Below are positions 12,704 through 61,949 of a DNA stretch of 64,000 bases, in pieces. The stretch covers positions 469,896-533,895 of the forward strand of contig NZ_GL397214.1 in the NCBI RefSeq assembly GCF_000146675.1, written 5' to 3'. Position numbers and translations under genes: made by a program. Origin of the DNA: Hoylesella marshii DSM 16973 = JCM 13450. Its GTDB lineage: Bacteria; Bacteroidota; Bacteroidia; Bacteroidales; Bacteroidaceae. Each line of letters opens with the position of its first letter. Within the stretch, counting starts at the first letter, position 1. Below the pieces are notes generated by a model, which saw only the letters and a list, made by a program, of their open reading frames with translations, ran no database searches and was not told where the DNA came from.

Positions 12704-13417
12704 TTACCGTCTGTTGCCAAGAAGGCGGAGCAGATAGAGAAAGAGGTTGATGAAATCGAGATACAAAGTCAGTGCGCCGAACAGTGCAACCTTCTGCGCG
12801 GTCTCATCGGCATCAACTTGCTGCGCGAGCATTTGTTTGATTTTCTGCGAGTCGTAGGCCGTCAGTCCTACAAATATCAATACGCCGGCATAGCTTATAA
12901 CGAGAGAGAGCATACTGCTACCTACGAAGATATTCACCACCGTGGCTATCACAAGGCCTATCAGTGCCATAAACAGATACTTGCCCAAGGTCGTGAGGTC
13001 GCTCTTTGTGAAATAGCCGTAAGCGGCCATGGCGGCAAAAGTGCCCGCAGTAATAAAGAATACATTGGCCACCGACGACATCGTGTACACGAGGAAAATG
13101 GAAGAGAACATCACGCCGTTGAGCACCGAATATACGACAAACAGAAGCGTCGCCACGGAGAGAGACAAACGGTTGAGGGCTGCGGAGAGGGCAAAGACGA
13201 GCGCAAACTCGGCGATGACTACGCCCCACATCAGCATCTGGTTGGTATAAAACGCTGTGATGAGGCCGGGCGATGAGGCCACACCGTAAGCCGTGATACC
13301 GGTAATGATAAGTGCAAGGCTCATCCATACGTAGACTTTACGCATGAGTGCAGGGAATGCGAGCGACAAGGCGCCGTCTTTTTCCCTCATAAATCTGGTT
13401 AATTCCTGTTCATTCAT
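12704..13417 (-). CDS. Bax inhibitor-1 / YccA family membrane protein
   Basis: 237 residues with seven hydrophobic helices and a short polar N-terminus. Characteristic are LMRKVYVWMSLALIITGITAY, the FTKSDLTTLGKYLFMALIGL loop-helix and a helix ending in DSQKIKQ, where the conserved Asp sits. Bacterial relatives (YccA, YbhL, BsYetJ) are pH-gated Ca2+ leak channels or modulators of FtsH. It is located 82 bases after lpxH and 26 before the T9SS plug gene, all minus strand. Confidence 0.88.
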   Translation of the reverse strand: MNEQELTRFMREKDGALSLAFPALMRKVYVWMSLALIITGITAYGVASSPGLITAFYTNQMLMWGVVIAEFALVFALSAALNRLSLSVATLLFVVYSVLNGVMFSSIFLVYTMSSVANVFFITAGTFAAMAAYGYFTKSDLTTLGKYLFMALIGLVIATVVNIFVGSSMLSLVISYAGVLIFVGLTAYDSQKIKQMLAQQVDADETAQKVALFGALTLYLDFINLFLYLLRLLGNRR

Positions 13418-14862: not shown

Positions 14863-15263
14863 TAGAAGTCTTGGCCGACGATAGTTAAACAAATGATAAA
14901 GTATCAGAAACTGCGGCCGATGGCAGTTAAATGTTTAAAATAGTATCGTCAGCTGTGGCCGATGATAGTTAAATGTTTAAAATAATATTATCGGCCGCGG
15001 CCGATGGCAGTTAAATGATTAAAATAGTATCGTCGGCCACGGCCGATGATGGTTAAATGTTTAAAATAATATCGTCGGCCGTGGCCGATGGTGGTTAAAT
15101 GATTAAAATAGTATCGTCGGCCATGGCCGACGTGAATTAAAGTTAATAGAAATATCGTCGGCCGCGGCCGACGTGAATAAAACATAATAAAATTATCGTC
15201 GGCCACGGCCGACGCAAATAAAAGTTAATGTGAGCTATCGTCGGCCGCGGCCGACGCATATAA
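14863..15263. repeat. 42-bp tandem array, GC-rich half (10 units with strong palindromes)
   Basis: Ten units whose anchor base falls at 14863, 14905, 14947, 14989, 15031, 15073, 15115, 15156, 15197 and 15239 (period 42, twice 41). The core of the best units is the perfect 18-base palindrome CGTCGGCCGCGGCCGACG; the central dinucleotide varies (GC, AC, GT, AT), always purine-pyrimidine. The first two units are degenerate. Linkers are AT-rich (TTAAATGTTTAAAATAAT type). Any transcript would be a string of stable hairpins. No open frame fits; the repeat-derived minus frame is an artefact. The region 14598-14860 to the left shows nothing beyond the DUF59 promoter. Confidence 0.93.
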
Positions 15264-15654
15264 AAAGTAATTTTACCTACCATTCTCTATAAAATTGGAT
15301 GTAAAAATGAGAAATAACCTACCATTCTCTATAAAATTGGATGTAAAAATGAGAAATAACCTATCTTCGGCTATAGATTTTGATATGAAAATGAGTAATT
15401 ACCTATCTTCTGCTATAGATTTGGATAGAAAAATAGGCAATTACCTATCTTCGGCTATAGATTTGGATAGGAAAATAGACAATTACCTATTTTCGACTAT
15501 AGATTTTGATAGGAAAACAAGGAAAAAAGTGTTTTTTGCTATAAAAAATGATAGGATAAAGAAAAAATCACTATATTTGCCCTATACCGAAGTATGTATA
15601 AAAAAGAAAATCAAGGCTTCGGCTATTGTTAGCGTATCAATAATTAACTATTAA
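15264..15654. repeat. 42-bp tandem array, AT-rich half, in phase with the GC-rich half
   Basis: The same 42-base phase continues without a break (anchors 15281, 15323, 15365, 15407, 15449, 15491, then decayed units at about 15533, 15575 and 15617). The first two units are identical (CCTACCATTCTCTATAAAA...), the next four have CCTATCTTCGGCTATAG and end in GATAGG, so CCTATC / GATAGG forms the stem. The final degenerate unit (GGCTTCGGCTATTG) ends 13 bases before the DUF6261 start codon. A possible -7 box TATATTTG (15572-15579) lies inside the array. Confidence 0.88.
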
Positions 15655-15666
15655 ATAAGAACAGCT

Positions 15667-16653
15667 ATGAAATTAAAGACTTTAAAGAAGAGTCATCTCC
15701 AAAATCTGGAGCATTCTCAGTTTGCTATTCATGTTTATAAAATAAGTAAGGAGGCCGACATTAAGAAACTGAATTCATTACTACCGGCGCTTAAAGCCGC
15801 TATTGATGCAGAAGAAGAAGTACTCAATCTGCCCCGGGAAAAAGAGTATACAAAAGAATTAAAAGTACTCGACAAGGCAAGAGACGAATCTTACAGAGCC
15901 TTTTGCCTATGCGTAGCTTCGGGAAAATATAGGCATTCGGAAGCTATACGTAAGGCGGCAGAAGAGGTCGGTAAGGTTTTAAAACGTTATCCAAGAGTGC
16001 CTTCGTCAAGTAATGATTATGAAACGGGTTCTATAAGAAATCTTATGGTAGATTTGAGAGATGAGAAATTTGAACCCTTGATTACCCTACTCGGAGCCAA
16101 GTCTGATTTAGATCAATTATCAGCTGATAATGACGCCTTCAGTCAATTGTTTCTGAAACACTTCTCGGCCAAAGCTCCTATTCCTACTGCACAGGTAAGA
16201 CGATCGCGCGCCATGACCGATAAGGCTATCAATGCCATTATACTACGCATTACCTCATTAAGTGATTTAGAGCCTGATACGATAGGTCTCAGTTCTCTTA
16301 TCATCCGATATAATAAATTGGTAAATAACCGTAAACTCACCCTCACTTTGCGTAAAGCAGCAAGAAAAAGGAGGAGCGGCGATGATATCATTCCGTTTGA
16401 AAATAAAAAAAGCAAGAGCGGCAAGGGCGAACAAGAGTCTGTTATTGCAGAAACCGTCGATGAGGATAGCATCGGAGAGGAGAAAATGGAAAAAACTGTC
16501 GAAAGCAGTGGCGGCGGAGAGGATTTTCCGGTAGAAACGAAGAGCGATGGTGGCGGAGAAGAGGAAAAGGCGGGGGAAAGGAGCAGACGGAAAAAGAATG
16601 ACAAGAAAATAAACAAAGAACCATCGGCAGGGGCGAAAGAAAAACTGCTGTAA
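15667..16653 (+). CDS. DUF6261 family protein
   Basis: 328 residues, no signal peptide or membrane helix. Residues 1-235 are helical and match the Bacteroidales-restricted DUF6261 pattern (opening LKTLKKSHLQNLEHSQFAIH, later YRAFCLCVASGKYRHSEAIRKAAEEV and the QVRRSRAMTDKAINAIILRI helix). Residues 236-328 are a low-complexity charged tail with K/R runs (RSRRKKNDKK) and E/G stretches, of a nucleic-acid-binding or disordered kind. Function unknown. The gene directly follows the 42-bp hairpin array, with AATAAGAACAGCT before ATG as a weak leader. The body is AT-rich compared with neighbours. I infer, but cannot show, that array and protein belong together. Confidence 0.8.
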   Translation: MKLKTLKKSHLQNLEHSQFAIHVYKISKEADIKKLNSLLPALKAAIDAEEEVLNLPREKEYTKELKVLDKARDESYRAFCLCVASGKYRHSEAIRKAAEEVGKVLKRYPRVPSSSNDYETGSIRNLMVDLRDEKFEPLITLLGAKSDLDQLSADNDAFSQLFLKHFSAKAPIPTAQVRRSRAMTDKAINAIILRITSLSDLEPDTIGLSSLIIRYNKLVNNRKLTLTLRKAARKRRSGDDIIPFENKKSKSGKGEQESVIAETVDEDSIGEEKMEKTVESSGGGEDFPVETKSDGGGEEEKAGERSRRKKNDKKINKEPSAGAKEKLL

Positions 16654-16697: not shown

Positions 16698-18224
16698 TCA
16701 GAGATGTTGTTCGCGCAACAAATCGTTTACGTTTTTCACCGGATTGAACGTGGTGAGGGGCACTTCTACAAAGACGGTGTTCCAATGACTCATGGCTCCG
16801 TTCCACAATCCGGGTAATTCGAGGGCTTTGAGTTCTTTTCCGTCCTTACTTTTGTTGCTGATGAAGCCGGTGGCAGTGTCTACGTAGTCGGGCAGGTGGA
16901 ATTTGCGTCCTCGATAGTCTTTGATGGCACACACGAGGTCTACGGGATTGAAGTGCGTGCTTTTTTTGAACATTTCCATGGCTTTCGGGTCGTTTTTGTC
17001 TATCTGGCTGCTTTCGAGAATCTGCAGGCCGGTGGAGCCGTCGTTATTCCGTGTGATGAAGGGGCCTCCGCCGGGTTCTCCCTCGTTTTTAACCATGCCG
17101 CAGACGCGTATGGGTCGGTTGAGCTTCTTGTGCAGATAGGCAGCGAGTGCGTCGTCGGACAGTTGCGCGATGTCGGGCTGTATGCACCAGAATGCCTGCT
17201 CGAGGAATGCGACGATTTTCATCAGTTCGTTGCGGGTGTAATGGTGCGTATCGAGCAGTTCGAGATGGCGGAAGGTCTGCGCTTGAAGGTCTGCGAGAAT
17301 GCCTCCGATGAGCTGTTTGTACTCGGTGGTGTCGGTTTTGAGGCGGTCGGGTACAACGTTATCGATATTTTTGATAAATACGATGTCGGCCTCGATGTCG
17401 TTGAGGTTTTCTATCAGTGCGCCGTGTCCGGCCGGCCTAAAGAGCAGTGTGCCGTCTGCATTTCTGAAAGGCGTGTTGTCGGGGTTCACGGCGATGGTAT
17501 CGGTATGCTGTTTCTGTTCGGAGAAGGAGACGTTGTATTTCACATTGAAACGCGTGGCATAGTCGTTCTGTCGCTTGGCAATGAGCGATTGAAAGAGGTG
17601 CAAATGCTCGTGGGAGACGGTGAAATGGATGTTCACCTCGCCATTGCTTTCTGCATAGAGTGCGCCCTCTACGAGATGTTCCTCTACGGGCATGCGCACA
17701 CCGGCGGGATAGCGATGGAAGAGCAACAATCCCTTGGGTAATCGGCTGTAGTTGAGTCCGTCTTCATTGAGCATCAATGCTACGATGTTTTTATGTTTCC
17801 CCTCGGCCATGAGTTGGTCGATGCTTTTGCCCAAATGGTGCTTGCATGCGGCGGAGAGCTTATCGTAAAAGGCGAATTTGTGAATCCCTGCGAAGTAGGT
17901 CTTTTCAAATTCGGTGACCGGCTCGGGGTTGTCGGCCTGCAAGAACTCAAACATATCCTTAAACATTCTGCTGGCTGCTCCGCTGGCCGGCACGAACTTC
18001 AGGATGCGATGGTCGCCACTCTTCTTATAGGCATGCCATTTGTCGATGAATTCTTTGCGGCCGTTTGCATCTACAGCCATCATACCGTGGCCGATTGTGG
18101 CCGCCGCTTCAATCTTCAGGAAGGGGAAACCTGTTGCGAACTGTGCCAATTGGCGTTCTATCTGTTTTTCGGATATTCCTCTTTGAGAGAGTTGCTCAAA
18201 GTCTTTCTTCTCTAATCTGTTCAT
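16698..18224 (-). CDS. DUF4301 family protein
   Basis: A 508-residue cytoplasmic protein of a Bacteroidota family without known function. Start set at ATG 18224 (MNRLEKKDFEQLSQRGIS), the family N-terminus; the frame extends to 18266 but that would overlap the relA promoter region. Seen: FVPASGAASRMFKDM (nucleotide-sugar pyrophosphorylase-like GxGxxSRM pattern), LPKGLLLFHRY, RPAGHGALIENLNDI and KNIDNVVPD. These blocks resemble the sugar-nucleotidyltransferase fold, so an UDP-sugar pyrophosphorylase-like role is possible (inference). It diverges from relA. Confidence 0.82.
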   Translation of the reverse strand: MNRLEKKDFEQLSQRGISEKQIERQLAQFATGFPFLKIEAAATIGHGMMAVDANGRKEFIDKWHAYKKSGDHRILKFVPASGAASRMFKDMFEFLQADNPEPVTEFEKTYFAGIHKFAFYDKLSAACKHHLGKSIDQLMAEGKHKNIVALMLNEDGLNYSRLPKGLLLFHRYPAGVRMPVEEHLVEGALYAESNGEVNIHFTVSHEHLHLFQSLIAKRQNDYATRFNVKYNVSFSEQKQHTDTIAVNPDNTPFRNADGTLLFRPAGHGALIENLNDIEADIVFIKNIDNVVPDRLKTDTTEYKQLIGGILADLQAQTFRHLELLDTHHYTRNELMKIVAFLEQAFWCIQPDIAQLSDDALAAYLHKKLNRPIRVCGMVKNEGEPGGGPFITRNNDGSTGLQILESSQIDKNDPKAMEMFKKSTHFNPVDLVCAIKDYRGRKFHLPDYVDTATGFISNKSKDGKELKALELPGLWNGAMSHWNTVFVEVPLTTFNPVKNVNDLLREQHL

Positions 18225-18296
18225 GGTGTTTAATAGTATTTTGCGACAAATATAGTTACTTTTCACTGAATACGGAACTTTTCATTGAAAAATTTG

Positions 18297-34342: not shown

Positions 34343-35217
34343 ATGAAACAGAAGTTATCCTCTCCCAGTTTTGCTGACCTGTTCCTTGGACAAAGAAAGG
34401 TCAAGCAGACATTCTTTTCACAAATAGTATGATACGCTTCTTGTGGAGTTTAATCGGCAATTGGAAGCTAAAGGAATCATTGTTAAGCGAGGTGCCATCG
34501 TTGATGCCAGCATTACGAATACGCCCCGCCGCCCCCGCGGAGATAAGAGCTATGAGGTCGTTGAGGATAGAAAAGAGGATGAGAACATGGAGGCTTCGGA
34601 GAAAACCATGCTCAAAGAAGTTGTCAAGCCTAACGTAGATACTTTTTTTCGCTTAGTCGGACGCCACGACAACTGGCGGGAGGCTTGCCCGGCTGGGGCA
34701 AACGCCAAACCAAAAGGAAAGTTAAATGCCCGGCGTTGCAAATGTCAAACCGAAAGGAAAGTTAAATGCAACGGCGTTGCAAACGTCACACGGTAACGGA
34801 TGAAAACGGAATGGTGCTTGCCGAGGAAACGACAGCTGCCAATGAAAGTGATATGAAACACTTAGAAACACCCCTGAAGAAAGCCAAGCTACCACGGAAA
34901 GCACTTGTCTATGCCGATAAAGGATATGACTCGATGGAGAACAAAGAAACCCTCAAACGTATGAAACTTAAAAGTCGTATCATGCATAAGGGAACAAGAG
35001 GACATGAAATTACGAAAGGCAGCAGCGTATCAATGTTGCGATAAGTAAGACACGCTACAAAGTAGAACGCACCTTTGGTTCTATGCATAGATGGTTTGGT
35101 GCTGGAATAGCAAGATACGTCGGACTTTCAAAAACACATGCGCAGCATATTATGGAATCCATTGCCTACAACTTATACCGAACGCCAGGGATTATTGTGT
35201 CAAATTCTATCAGATAA
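34343..35217 (+). pseudogene. Transposase remnant (IS5 family, DDE type)
   Basis: The start (MKQKLSSPSFADLFLGQRK) is typical of these transposases, but a large internal part is missing after FFSQI; the next homologous stretch is LLVEFNRQLEAKGIIVKRGAIVDASI with PRRPRG and the YEVVEDR block. Two 40-bp repeat units then interrupt it, and the frame changes before KRHTVTDENGMVLAEETTAAN and VYADKGYDS. A single-base deletion at GAAATTACGAAAG (35016 region, compared with the second copy) shifts the frame again, and the final part reads ERTFGSMHRWFGAGIARYVGL in another frame. It cannot make an active enzyme. Confidence 0.85.
34698..34795. repeat. 40-bp tandem repeat inside the transposase remnant
   Basis: GTTAAATGC occurs at 34721 and 34761, with flanks AACCRAAAGGAAA and GGCGTTGCAAA also repeated at 40-base spacing, in about 2.4 copies. 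Each unit holds the palindrome-like GCAACGGCGTTGC. It replaces or interrupts transposase sequence, so it arrived or expanded after the IS decayed, or caused the decay. Confidence 0.75.
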
Positions 35218-41065: not shown

Positions 41066-41119
41066 GTCTGACGATTACCTATACTCACCTTGATTGCCCT
41101 GCTTTTTACCTTACCAAGA

Positions 41120-41259
41120 TAGCGCAAATGAGCGCAATGTAAACTTGTTTACTGATTGCCGAATGCAGCTTATCTTATGCAAAGGTAGCGCAAATGAGCG
41201 CAATGTAAACTCGTTTACTAATTGCCGAATGCAGCTTATCTTATGCAAAGGTAGCAAAA
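41120..41259 (-). promoter_or_regulatory. Duplicated 66-bp promoter/operator unit upstream of the cyd operon
   Basis: Two full 66-bp units (boundaries at 41120, 41186 and 41252). Each ends in a -7 box for the minus strand: TACCTTTG at plus 41180-41187 and 41246-41253; a decayed one (TATCTTGG) is at 41114-41121. Each also holds the perfect inverted repeat GTAAAC-N2-GTTTAC (41139-41152 with TT, 41205-41218 with TC). The second palindrome covers the -33 position of the promoter at 41180, so a dimeric regulator could block or recruit polymerase there. Confidence 0.75.
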
Positions 41260-52866: not shown

Positions 52867-53865
52867 ATGAAAAGAAACGATATACACGACCACGGAATAA
52901 CGATATATGTCGGCGAAGTGTGCGACGGGTTCCCGGAGTGCCGTGACATGTCGGCGAAGTGTGCGACGAGACAAGACGAGCGCCAAACCATGCCGTCGAA
53001 GTCTTCGCCAAGACTCCCTGAGTGCCGTGAAGTGCCGGCGAAGTGTGCGACGAGACAAAACGAGTGCCAAACCATGCCGGCGAAGACTTCGCCGAGGCTC
53101 CCTGAGTGCCGTGAAGTGTCGGCGAAGTATGCGACGAGAGCAAAACGAATCAGAATAGCCTCTTTGTCAAGAACTTACACATTATATATATATATAACCC
53201 TGTTGCTGATAATGGGCGGAATATCAGCCCATGCACAATCCGACAGGCAATTCATACGCAACGGCAACCAACTCTACCACGAGCGAAACTATGCCAAAGC
53301 CGAGGTAGAATATCGAAAAGCTCTCGATAAAAATCACAACAATACACATGCCGCCTATAACTTAGGCTGTGCGCTGATGATGCAGAAGAAAGACTCGGTC
53401 GCTATCCAGCAATTTGAAAATGCGGCAAAAGCAGAACCCAACAAACTTCGCCGAGCACAATCCTACCATAACATCGGAGTGGTATGCCAACAACATCGCA
53501 TGTATGCCGAGGCCATCGCAGCCTATAAGAATGCGCTGAGAAACAATCCATCGGATAACGAAACGCGCTATAATCTTGCCCTGTGTAAACGACTTCTGAA
53601 GCAGCAGCCGCAAAACAAACAGAACCAACAAAACAAACAAAACGATAAGAACAAGAACCAACAAAACGGAAACAACAAAAACCAACCGGAGAAAGACGAA
53701 AATAAGAAAGACAAGTCCAATCCACAACAACCCAAGGAGCAGATGAGCAAGGAAAATGCAGAGCAACTGCTCAATGCTGCAATGCAGGAAGAGAAAGCTA
53801 CGCAGCAAAGGCTGAAAAAGGCCATGCAGCAACCTCGCACCCGAAAGTTGGAGAAAAATTGGTGA
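52867..53865 (+). CDS. batC: BatC, TPR protein with repeat-expanded N-terminus
   Basis: 332 residues as annotated. Residues 15-92 are translated 42-bp repeats (CREVSAKCATRQ, MPAKTSPRLPE types) placed before the true secretion signal (about 105-124, IYITLLLIMGGISAHAQ). The mature part has TPR repeats (about 128-245; YHERNYAKAEVEYRKALDKN, AEAIAAYKNALRNNPSD) and a Q/N/K-rich C-terminal tail (about 250-332). The signal would be internal with the annotated ATG; no ATG lies between the repeats and the signal, so either a TTG just before the signal is used or the long form is made. BatD overlaps little. Confidence 0.85.
   Translation: MKRNDIHDHGITIYVGEVCDGFPECRDMSAKCATRQDERQTMPSKSSPRLPECREVPAKCATRQNECQTMPAKTSPRLPECREVSAKYATRAKRIRIASLSRTYTLYIYITLLLIMGGISAHAQSDRQFIRNGNQLYHERNYAKAEVEYRKALDKNHNNTHAAYNLGCALMMQKKDSVAIQQFENAAKAEPNKLRRAQSYHNIGVVCQQHRMYAEAIAAYKNALRNNPSDNETRYNLALCKRLLKQQPQNKQNQQNKQNDKNKNQQNGNNKNQPEKDENKKDKSNPQQPKEQMSKENAEQLLNAAMQEEKATQQRLKKAMQQPRTRKLEKNW
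52910..53146. repeat. 42/84-bp tandem repeat at the 5' end of batC
   Basis: CGGCGAAGTGTGCGACG-type units start at 52910, 52951, 53035 and 53119 (spacing 41, 84, 84). Each 84-bp period splits into two 42-bp halves that both open with CCGGCGAAG or a close variant. The second half contains the perfect palindrome CGGCGAAGACTTCGCCG. As 42 and 84 are divisible by three, most units keep the batC frame open. Confidence 0.88.
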
Positions 53866-61722: not shown

Positions 61723-61861
61723 ACTCAATCCAATCATTAAAGACTACATTTATTATATAACAAAGAAACATTCTTCGTCTCACATGCTGAGAATAGAAAC
61801 AATGGGAGGGGACAACTTGTAAGTCACTGCCATACAACGTCATACAAAGTTGCTTGAAAAA

Positions 61862-61949
61862 GCATAGCTCTGAACTTATTGAAGCATAGCTCTGAACGTG
61901 TGAAAGCTACCTTTTTAAGGGCTAAAAAGGATGCTAATGCTCAACTAAT
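61862..61949. repeat. 22-bp tandem repeat array, locus 4 (about 4 units)
   Basis: Anchors GCATAG at 61862 and 61884, GCTACC at 61906 and a degenerate AGGATG at 61928, all 22 apart. The first two units are almost equal (GCATAGCTCTGAAC...). Downstream of nadE. Confidence 0.82.

Follow-up and report, generated by a model that had tools for sequence, protein, structure and literature searches.

Why does a long array of tandem palindromic units stand directly upstream of a gene for DUF6261, a protein family with no described function, and does such an array belong to the gene? This question is raised by a locus of Hoylesella marshii in the 64,000 nucleotides analyzed here (the window; C1:469896-533895 of a 2.56-Mb genome in 11 contigs). 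An earlier note on this DNA had proposed nineteen units in one 42-base phase running into the gene, with array and protein forming a combined RNA-protein or DNA-protein module. The following features of the window bear on the question.

14869-15288, plus strand: array part 1, ten 41-42-bp units of the GTCGGCC-N2-GGCCGAC type (lag identity, TRF)
15289-15540, plus strand: array part 2, six 42-bp units with a sequence unrelated to part 1 (lag-42 identity up to 0.95; TRF rows 15273-15521)
15541-15666, plus strand: leader between array and gene (lag-42 identity 0.33-0.45)
15667-16653, plus strand: DUF6261 gene, 328 aa, with a helical core (to about residue 236) and a disordered tail (PF19775 match, model)
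34686-34788, no strand assigned: short 40-bp array, 2.5 copies, without DUF6261 (TRF)
52931-53148, no strand assigned: array of period 84, i.e., 2 x 42, without a DUF6261 gene (TRF, flanking genes)

A 42-bp-phased array with a 41-bp stretch upstream of a DUF6261 gene was confirmed by lag identity, TRF and the PF19775 match: in part 1 the identity reaches up to 0.88 at lag 42, followed by a stretch with best lag 41, and the protein is above the gathering score of Pfam PF19775 (108.6 bits, cut-off 27; E 3.5e-31). The array is composed of two unrelated unit types, ten GGCC-palindrome units and then six others, and not of the single type supposed earlier. The sixteen clear units were recovered (ten plus six), while the three "decayed" units placed beside the gene are unsupported, because the TRF rows stop at 15521 or before and the lag-42 identity there is like that ahead of the array (0.31-0.48): it is 0.60 at 15494 and 0.33-0.45 from 15515. 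From the row ends and this fall in identity, the supported array ends approximately 125-145 bp before the ATG, and not 13 bp before it. Since the units abut without spacers between them (TRF, lag identity), the array is not CRISPR, as had been stated. The leader has a TATATTTG box at 15572-15579, which we take to fit the Bacteroidetes -7 consensus.

In Bacteroidales, DUF6261 genes are usually preceded by tandem palindromic arrays, and the spacing is almost always 41-42 bases. The sample of 99 DUF6261 loci in 46 genomes has three sources. The window's genome supplied 11 PF19775 places (two match only the last third of the model), and a search of 100 relatives added 22 loci in 13 other genomes. 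In a draw of 392 genomes of the order, 44 were positive; 32 of these gave 26 loci picked automatically and 40 picked by choice, the latter from high and low ranks alike among the matches listed. The second part of the L069 gene (L078) was excluded from the 99; two copies in one genome (L101 and L117) were both counted, and L117 was excluded from unit analyses. With an array defined by a TRF period of 38-45 or a multiple, and at least 900 bp upstream required for the upstream count, an array was found upstream in 65 of 88 DUF6261 loci and downstream in 7 of 97. This outcome of the check proposed earlier, a search of DUF6261 genes for upstream repeats, favors the link. The best periods over all 99 loci are 41 (44 loci), 42 (23), 43 (2), 40 (1), and 83 (1), and the upstream TRF rows have peaks at 41 (51 rows) and 42 (33 rows) and at multiples, with little else within 25-80. 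In the sampled loci with arrays, the array ends a median of 126 bp before the ATG (range 18-549), and the copy number per array varies widely between loci, from 1.9 to 11.1. In 12 of the 23 array-less loci the strongest lag between 25 and 89 is 41, 42 or 82-84, and in a thirteenth it is 86; the one locus among them with a run of N belongs to the 10 of 88 with neither an array nor a lag of the 41-43 type.

In the window's genome, 10 of 11 DUF6261 places have an upstream 41/42-bp (or double) array by TRF and the eleventh has a 42 lag; the units at these ten arrays all differ, save one pair with a common unit (L026/L027). An upstream array was also found in 17 of 26 named loci collected separately, about six of which are already counted in the 99 and three of which have less than 350 bp upstream. 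Of five loci examined later as a hold-out, two have a TRF array (41, 42) and another has a 42 lag; of the three that belong to another order of the class, two show 41/42. The family itself is patchy: counting the window's genome each time, it occurs in 14 of the 100 relatives, in 44 of the 392 genomes from the order, and in 4 of 197 from the class.

As a control, the gene at window 16698-18266, present in 88 of 100 genus genomes, was searched at 29 genus loci under identical array criteria. Of those with enough flank, none of 27 has an array upstream and 1 of 26 has one downstream; an earlier, cruder pass over whole loci had given periods of 38-45 in 3 of 29. A comparison meant to reveal an empty site at this gene gave none: the tested window neighbors, which we take to be MIP18-like, LpxH and relA genes plus the gene at 12704, lay within flanks of at most 1.5 kb in 0 of the 29 relatives. 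Of random 960-bp segments, 1 of 400 from DUF6261-free genus genomes and 7 of 379 from the window's genome carry an array, and 41/42 or its double is the strongest lag in 28 of 400 segments (7%) from the DUF6261-free genomes.

As to whether such arrays occur equally often at unrelated genes, which would have counted against the link, the finding is a mixed one: similar arrays do exist away from DUF6261. In a 393-400 kb sample of the window's genome, with DUF6261 genes kept in the draw, fifteen arrays of period 39-44 lie at about ten places, four at DUF6261 genes; several of the other places hold copies of units linked to DUF6261. In 140 kb of another genome (G233), eight arrays of period 39-44 lie at seven places, beside ordinary chromosomal genes as read by eye, and tblastn (1e-4) found no DUF6261 relatives in these stretches. 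One with at least nine DUF6261 genes (G436) has no array in the 140 kb sampled, and G444 has a single array in 120 kb, immediately ahead of its DUF6261 gene. For comparison, 400 kb from three single-contig genus genomes lacking DUF6261 hits contain two arrays of period 39-44, one of 2.5 and one of 2.0 copies. Among the four sampled genomes that carry DUF6261, two are rich in arrays, and the three DUF6261-free ones have almost none; arrays away from a DUF6261 gene are common in G000 and G233.

Arrays of other periods were also seen. Tandem arrays of 22-23 bp, about half the 41-42 period, are many in the window's genome (random stretches; window 61859-61907) and occur in DUF6261-free genus members too. 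A 66-bp unit in 2.1 copies at window 41116-41255 is partly similar, by eye, to a 66-bp array at C1:1484848. At C1:149466-149834 (L038), a 61-bp array of six near-identical copies (97% matches) lies beside the 41/42-bp arrays at one DUF6261 gene.

What the arrays have in common is geometry (period, inverted repeats, and half-period dyad) and not unit sequence. Unit consensus sequences were built for 69 arrays (L117 left out), and their longest perfect inverted repeat has a mean of 5.93 bp vs 4.07 bp in shuffles (best of 200 permuted means, 4.38). The palindrome test on single arrays gives p < 0.05 in 26 of 69, perfect 6-bp arms are present in 28 of 69, and the pooled units have a palindrome of about 16 bp beyond chance. 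A second, weaker dyad is located half a period away (20.5-21 bp; z 5.2 to 7.6) and is absent from shuffles; since the two palindromes that a unit tends to hold are about 20.5-21 bp apart, the dyads recur about every two helical turns of B-DNA. Within the 28 perfect-arm arrays, pairing of the innermost positions is no better than chance (7 of 28), and positions 12-19.5 from the dyad are complementary in 107 of 224 cases (p 2e-13). When 79 arrays were considered, the palindrome ends tend to TT...AA in the perfect-arm arrays (31 of 79), the two outer 3' positions being A in 24 and 23 of the 31, respectively, and GCAAAC is found on the gene strand in 11 arrays and on the other strand in 3.

These regularities bear on one account of the arrays, in which they are minisatellites generated by replication slippage, neutral or promoter-tuning and kept for expression variation, and the protein never touches them. 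The wide variation in copy number and the adjoining of other genes are as this account expects; slippage, however, leaves unexplained one period common to unrelated sequences of many families, the excess palindromes with their half-period dyad, and the near-absence in DUF6261-free relatives, and we regard the account as quite improbable.

Units are unrelated between genes unless the proteins are approximately 65% identical or more. The mean local score of units on the same strand (observed vs shuffled) is 23.2 vs 6.8 for 13 pairs with 65-95% protein identity, 9.0 vs 6.5 for two pairs with 55-65%, 8.2 vs 6.2 for 32 pairs with 45-55%, and near the shuffled level below 45% (6.5-6.8 vs 5.9-6.1). 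Because unit similarity tracks protein identity, the arrays are inherited and diverge with the gene, yet at a faster rate of change than the gene. Among 23 unit pairs, 73 cells are the same and 32 are changed on one side, and double changes left 11 cells still paired and 10 unpaired; this is weak evidence for compensatory change, since many of the 23 pairs are barely related. In the clearest case, read by eye, L102 and L119 (proteins 76% identical) keep the dyad position with 4 of 6 arm pairs swapped for other complementary pairs.

Copies of DUF6261-linked units without a gene look like dispersal from a home locus. The window unit recurs at C1:1212345, 2505105-2505643, 2224503, and 1634568, and the array at C1:1212345 is followed by a DUF6261 tail fragment. 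Seven places carry copies of the unit that belongs to the gene at C1:1047437 (E < 1e-5). Four of these copies are composite arrays with, as read by eye, a common downstream segment containing a terminator-like hairpin, and three of the four share upstream sequence too; the shared flanks indicate that segmental duplication explains part of the spread. The remaining copies, again by eye, have the array alone in common, with unrelated flanks. The unit of the window array at 34686-34788 resembles by eye that at the DUF6261 gene C1:2207506; the search gave only a weak match (E 0.3), at C1:504556, just beside the short array. When 12 gene-less array places in ten stretches were searched for DUF6261 remnants (tblastn, E 0.01), only the C1:1212345 tail fragment was found, the other matches being weak and far from arrays or of short stretches. 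One DUF6261 protein used as a query found no plasmid record and two short phage-labeled fecal records (34% and 28% identity), and a pattern search of viral contigs gave no match; the system was treated as chromosomal.

Our tentatively preferred reading is that the array serves in cis as a DNA site for the adjoining DUF6261 protein, its predicted binder. Binding of each protein to its own array would be, we infer, the simplest account of the joint inheritance and of the privacy of units between paralogues. DUF6261 dimers, or dimers of dimers, might occupy successive dyads on one face of the double helix and so build a regular nucleoprotein array. The home array would then regulate the adjoining gene, and dispersed arrays with the home unit would be further sites for that home protein; the outcome could be gene regulation, chromosome organization, or array mobility. 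With a unit sequence particular to each protein, the paralogues of a genome would be kept from cross-reacting. This reading is favored by the upstream position, the period, the palindromes with their half-period dyad and common ends, the strand-symmetric mismatches, the co-inheritance of unit and protein, the dispersed copies, and the density of arrays in carrier genomes. The strand bias of GCAAAC argues against this reading, as the units are not fully symmetric and have more than a pure dimer site needs; so do the 10 of 88 loci with neither array nor lag, the arrays away from the gene, the array-poor stretches of G436 and G444, and the double changes, which broke pairing about as often as they kept it.

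The protein itself was examined with 22 members, all of which match PF19775. The 22-sequence model is all-helical (mean pLDDT 90.2, pTM 0.58), and the window protein has a core of like kind plus a disordered tail (pLDDT mostly >90 in the core and mostly <50 in the tail). With hits accepted up to E 0.1, these 22 members matched no transposase model in Pfam and no Rep model in Pfam, NCBIfam or PHROGs; nor did DUF6261 match a Par model. The family libraries gave no function for the protein. No DNA-binding fold was recognized, and a Foldseek search of the PDB yielded nothing at E 0.001 or below. Fold comparison was uninformative, since neither the best Foldseek hit (E 0.24) nor the best VIA hit (McpZ, Z 9.7) names a function. 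In most members the core is acidic (median pI 5.9 for 94 members; 9.7 for the window protein), which counts against a classic DNA-binding surface. The best stray hits of a few members, to DNA polymerase IV (one, E 1.8e-4), ZorA (one, 5.8e-5), JetD (three, 0.009), and a PHROG of unknown function (four, 0.036), and a profile match to BibA in PDB (E 0.0021), were not trusted.

Two peculiarities of the paralogues were recorded separately. The diverged L033, L034, L036, L037, and L041 have a nearly identical disordered KKPDDGG-rich tail ending in GPxPSDPLPMxPK[DE], as if tails had been exchanged between genes. The DUF6261-like L040 and L041, which match only positions 105-154 of the model and have no early ATG, have a common array unit.

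If the hairpins acted as RNA, the array would be transcribed and bound by DUF6261, or would serve as a structured leader or a small RNA. The strong folding predicted for the window array suits this possibility: as the earlier note said, hairpins form on either strand, window 14863-15275 folding far better than shuffles (z -11.5 and -11.1). A also exceeds T in the gene-strand unit consensus in 43 arrays and is fewer in 22. Both strands fold equally well, however, and selected RNA stems would show an excess of G-T over A-C mismatches, which is not seen in the 57 arrays with stems of at least 5 bp (52 G-T vs 47 A-C) or at the consensus level (8 vs 11). All 14 Rfam hits are under the gathering scores. 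A -7-like box (TAnnTTTG) is weakly enriched between array and gene (13 vs 7.0±2.7 expected, 68 loci) and weakly depleted inside the array (1 vs 3.9±2.0, 68 loci), which speaks weakly against a transcribed array and is too weak to settle transcription. We therefore consider an RNA module improbable. Of the combined module proposed earlier, the RNA-protein part is disfavored by mismatch symmetry and the DNA-protein part is plausible, with binding predicted. Mismatch symmetry fits duplex DNA and DNA hairpins alike; the fixed spacing favors duplex DNA, and the A-rich foot with its strand bias favors hairpins.

DNA hairpins are the substrate in REP/BIME systems, whose RAYT proteins (TnpA-REP) are Y1 HUH transposases. 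These systems have palindromic intergenic repeats, dispersed copies, and a cognate gene per repeat family in one genome, as in the present case. By analogy, the palindromes could be recognized as folded single-stranded hairpins with a 3' foot (AAAC), DUF6261 or a partner aiding their spread and the dispersed arrays being non-autonomous copies. Home-unit copies do lie elsewhere on the chromosome without a gene, some with unrelated flanks by eye; thus dispersed cognate repeats are found here as in REP/RAYT systems, cognate meaning shared sequence only. The foot motif is strand-biased, the chance pairing of the innermost positions (7 of 28) is as in a hairpin loop, and the strand-symmetric mismatches suit DNA hairpins as well. 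The enriched foot motif is GCAAAC on the 3' side, where RAYT tags are GTAG or CGTC. On the other hand, DUF6261 is all-helical and matches no Y1 HUH or other transposase model, and the one Y1 transposase hit of the genome (C1:1594075) is near none of the listed arrays. Four dispersed copies with common flanks point to ordinary segmental duplication for some of the spread, a hairpin substrate needs no fixed 41-42 period, and, unlike REPs, the units are unrelated between genes, with only the 41-42 spacing and the symmetry kept. We judge a REP-like system unlikely.

Another use of the arrays would be as cassette exchange sites at the 3' ends of fimbrillin-like genes, i.e., array-guided recombination. 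Six of the 11 DUF6261 genes of the window's genome follow a lipoprotein gene that we presume, from reading by eye, to be fimbrillin-like, with the array between (C1:1047477, 966018, 1073700, 1180430, 2537211, and 296152; L037, L036, L034, L033, L040, and L041, respectively), and composite arrays recur at four places. Three such neighbor proteins, however, have no Pfam family at E 0.01, the window DUF6261 gene has no fimbrillin-like neighbor, and elsewhere 39 of 111 loci have their closest ORF to the left on the opposite strand, a count that includes some spurious intra-array ORFs and for which ends were skimmed. Such recombination is thus highly improbable.

The preferred reading, a DNA site for the adjoining protein, has its closest counterparts in iterons with Rep initiators and in centromere arrays with ParB, ParR or Omega, where tandem helically phased sites lie directly upstream of the binder gene. 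The DUF6261 arrays have the same arrangement, with a putative binder, and differ in being chromosomal, in having many paralogues per genome, and in a 41-42-bp unit with two dyads; no ParA/ParM-type NTPase was recognized by eye among the array neighbors in the window's own genome. The BrickBuilt MITE minisatellite of Porphyromonas gingivalis is likewise an intergenic tandem repeat without spacers, in many copies, in Bacteroidales, and its abstract names no linked protein family (PMC4596501). It has a leader and a tail and a 23-nt unit of one sequence (PMC4596501), in contrast to the period of 41-42 at DUF6261 loci.

Among the known kinds compared, there is none in which a protein family is paired with arrays conserved in length and symmetry and free in sequence. 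A bolder reading, which we place on the unlikely side, sees in the arrays a bacterial version of satellite DNA, in which the proteins would read, or even build, DNA by geometry, with 41-42-bp units and dyads every two helical turns, letters drifting freely yet homogenized per array, a private code for each protein-array pair, and arrays seeded across the chromosome. If geometry and not sequence is read, this would be a bacterial parallel to centromere-type satellites; binding data could bring the pairing nearer to the iteron, centromere or REP kinds. DUF6261 is hereby tied to a non-coding feature recognizable by metric and symmetry, and, since it is not recognizable by sequence, it would be missed by sequence searches. 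No description of such arrays was found in the literature searched on 41/42-bp Bacteroidales repeats, Bacteroidetes palindromic repeats, P. gingivalis, or iterons, and no on-topic account in the portion of the DUF6261 literature accessible to us. The pairing gives the family its first testable role, and the dozens of diverged protein-array pairs are material on the joint evolution of DNA recognition and repeat arrays.

Diversity-generating retroelements were also considered, on account of a fold match and the fimbrillin-like neighbors: Avd aligns weakly with the middle helical bundle of DUF6261 (Z 9.0, rmsd 3.0, 91 residues; for helix bundles the tool warns of scores under about 13). Both RVT_1 hits of the window's genome (E 0.01) have PADLOC models as their best match, Drt3b and Drt3a, and, since both reverse transcriptases are of the Drt3 type and the fold score is one that common helix bundles reach, the idea was dropped. 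The adjacent Drt3a and Drt3b reverse-transcriptase defense genes of this genome are located at L219:29-3120 (about C1:844-847 kb).
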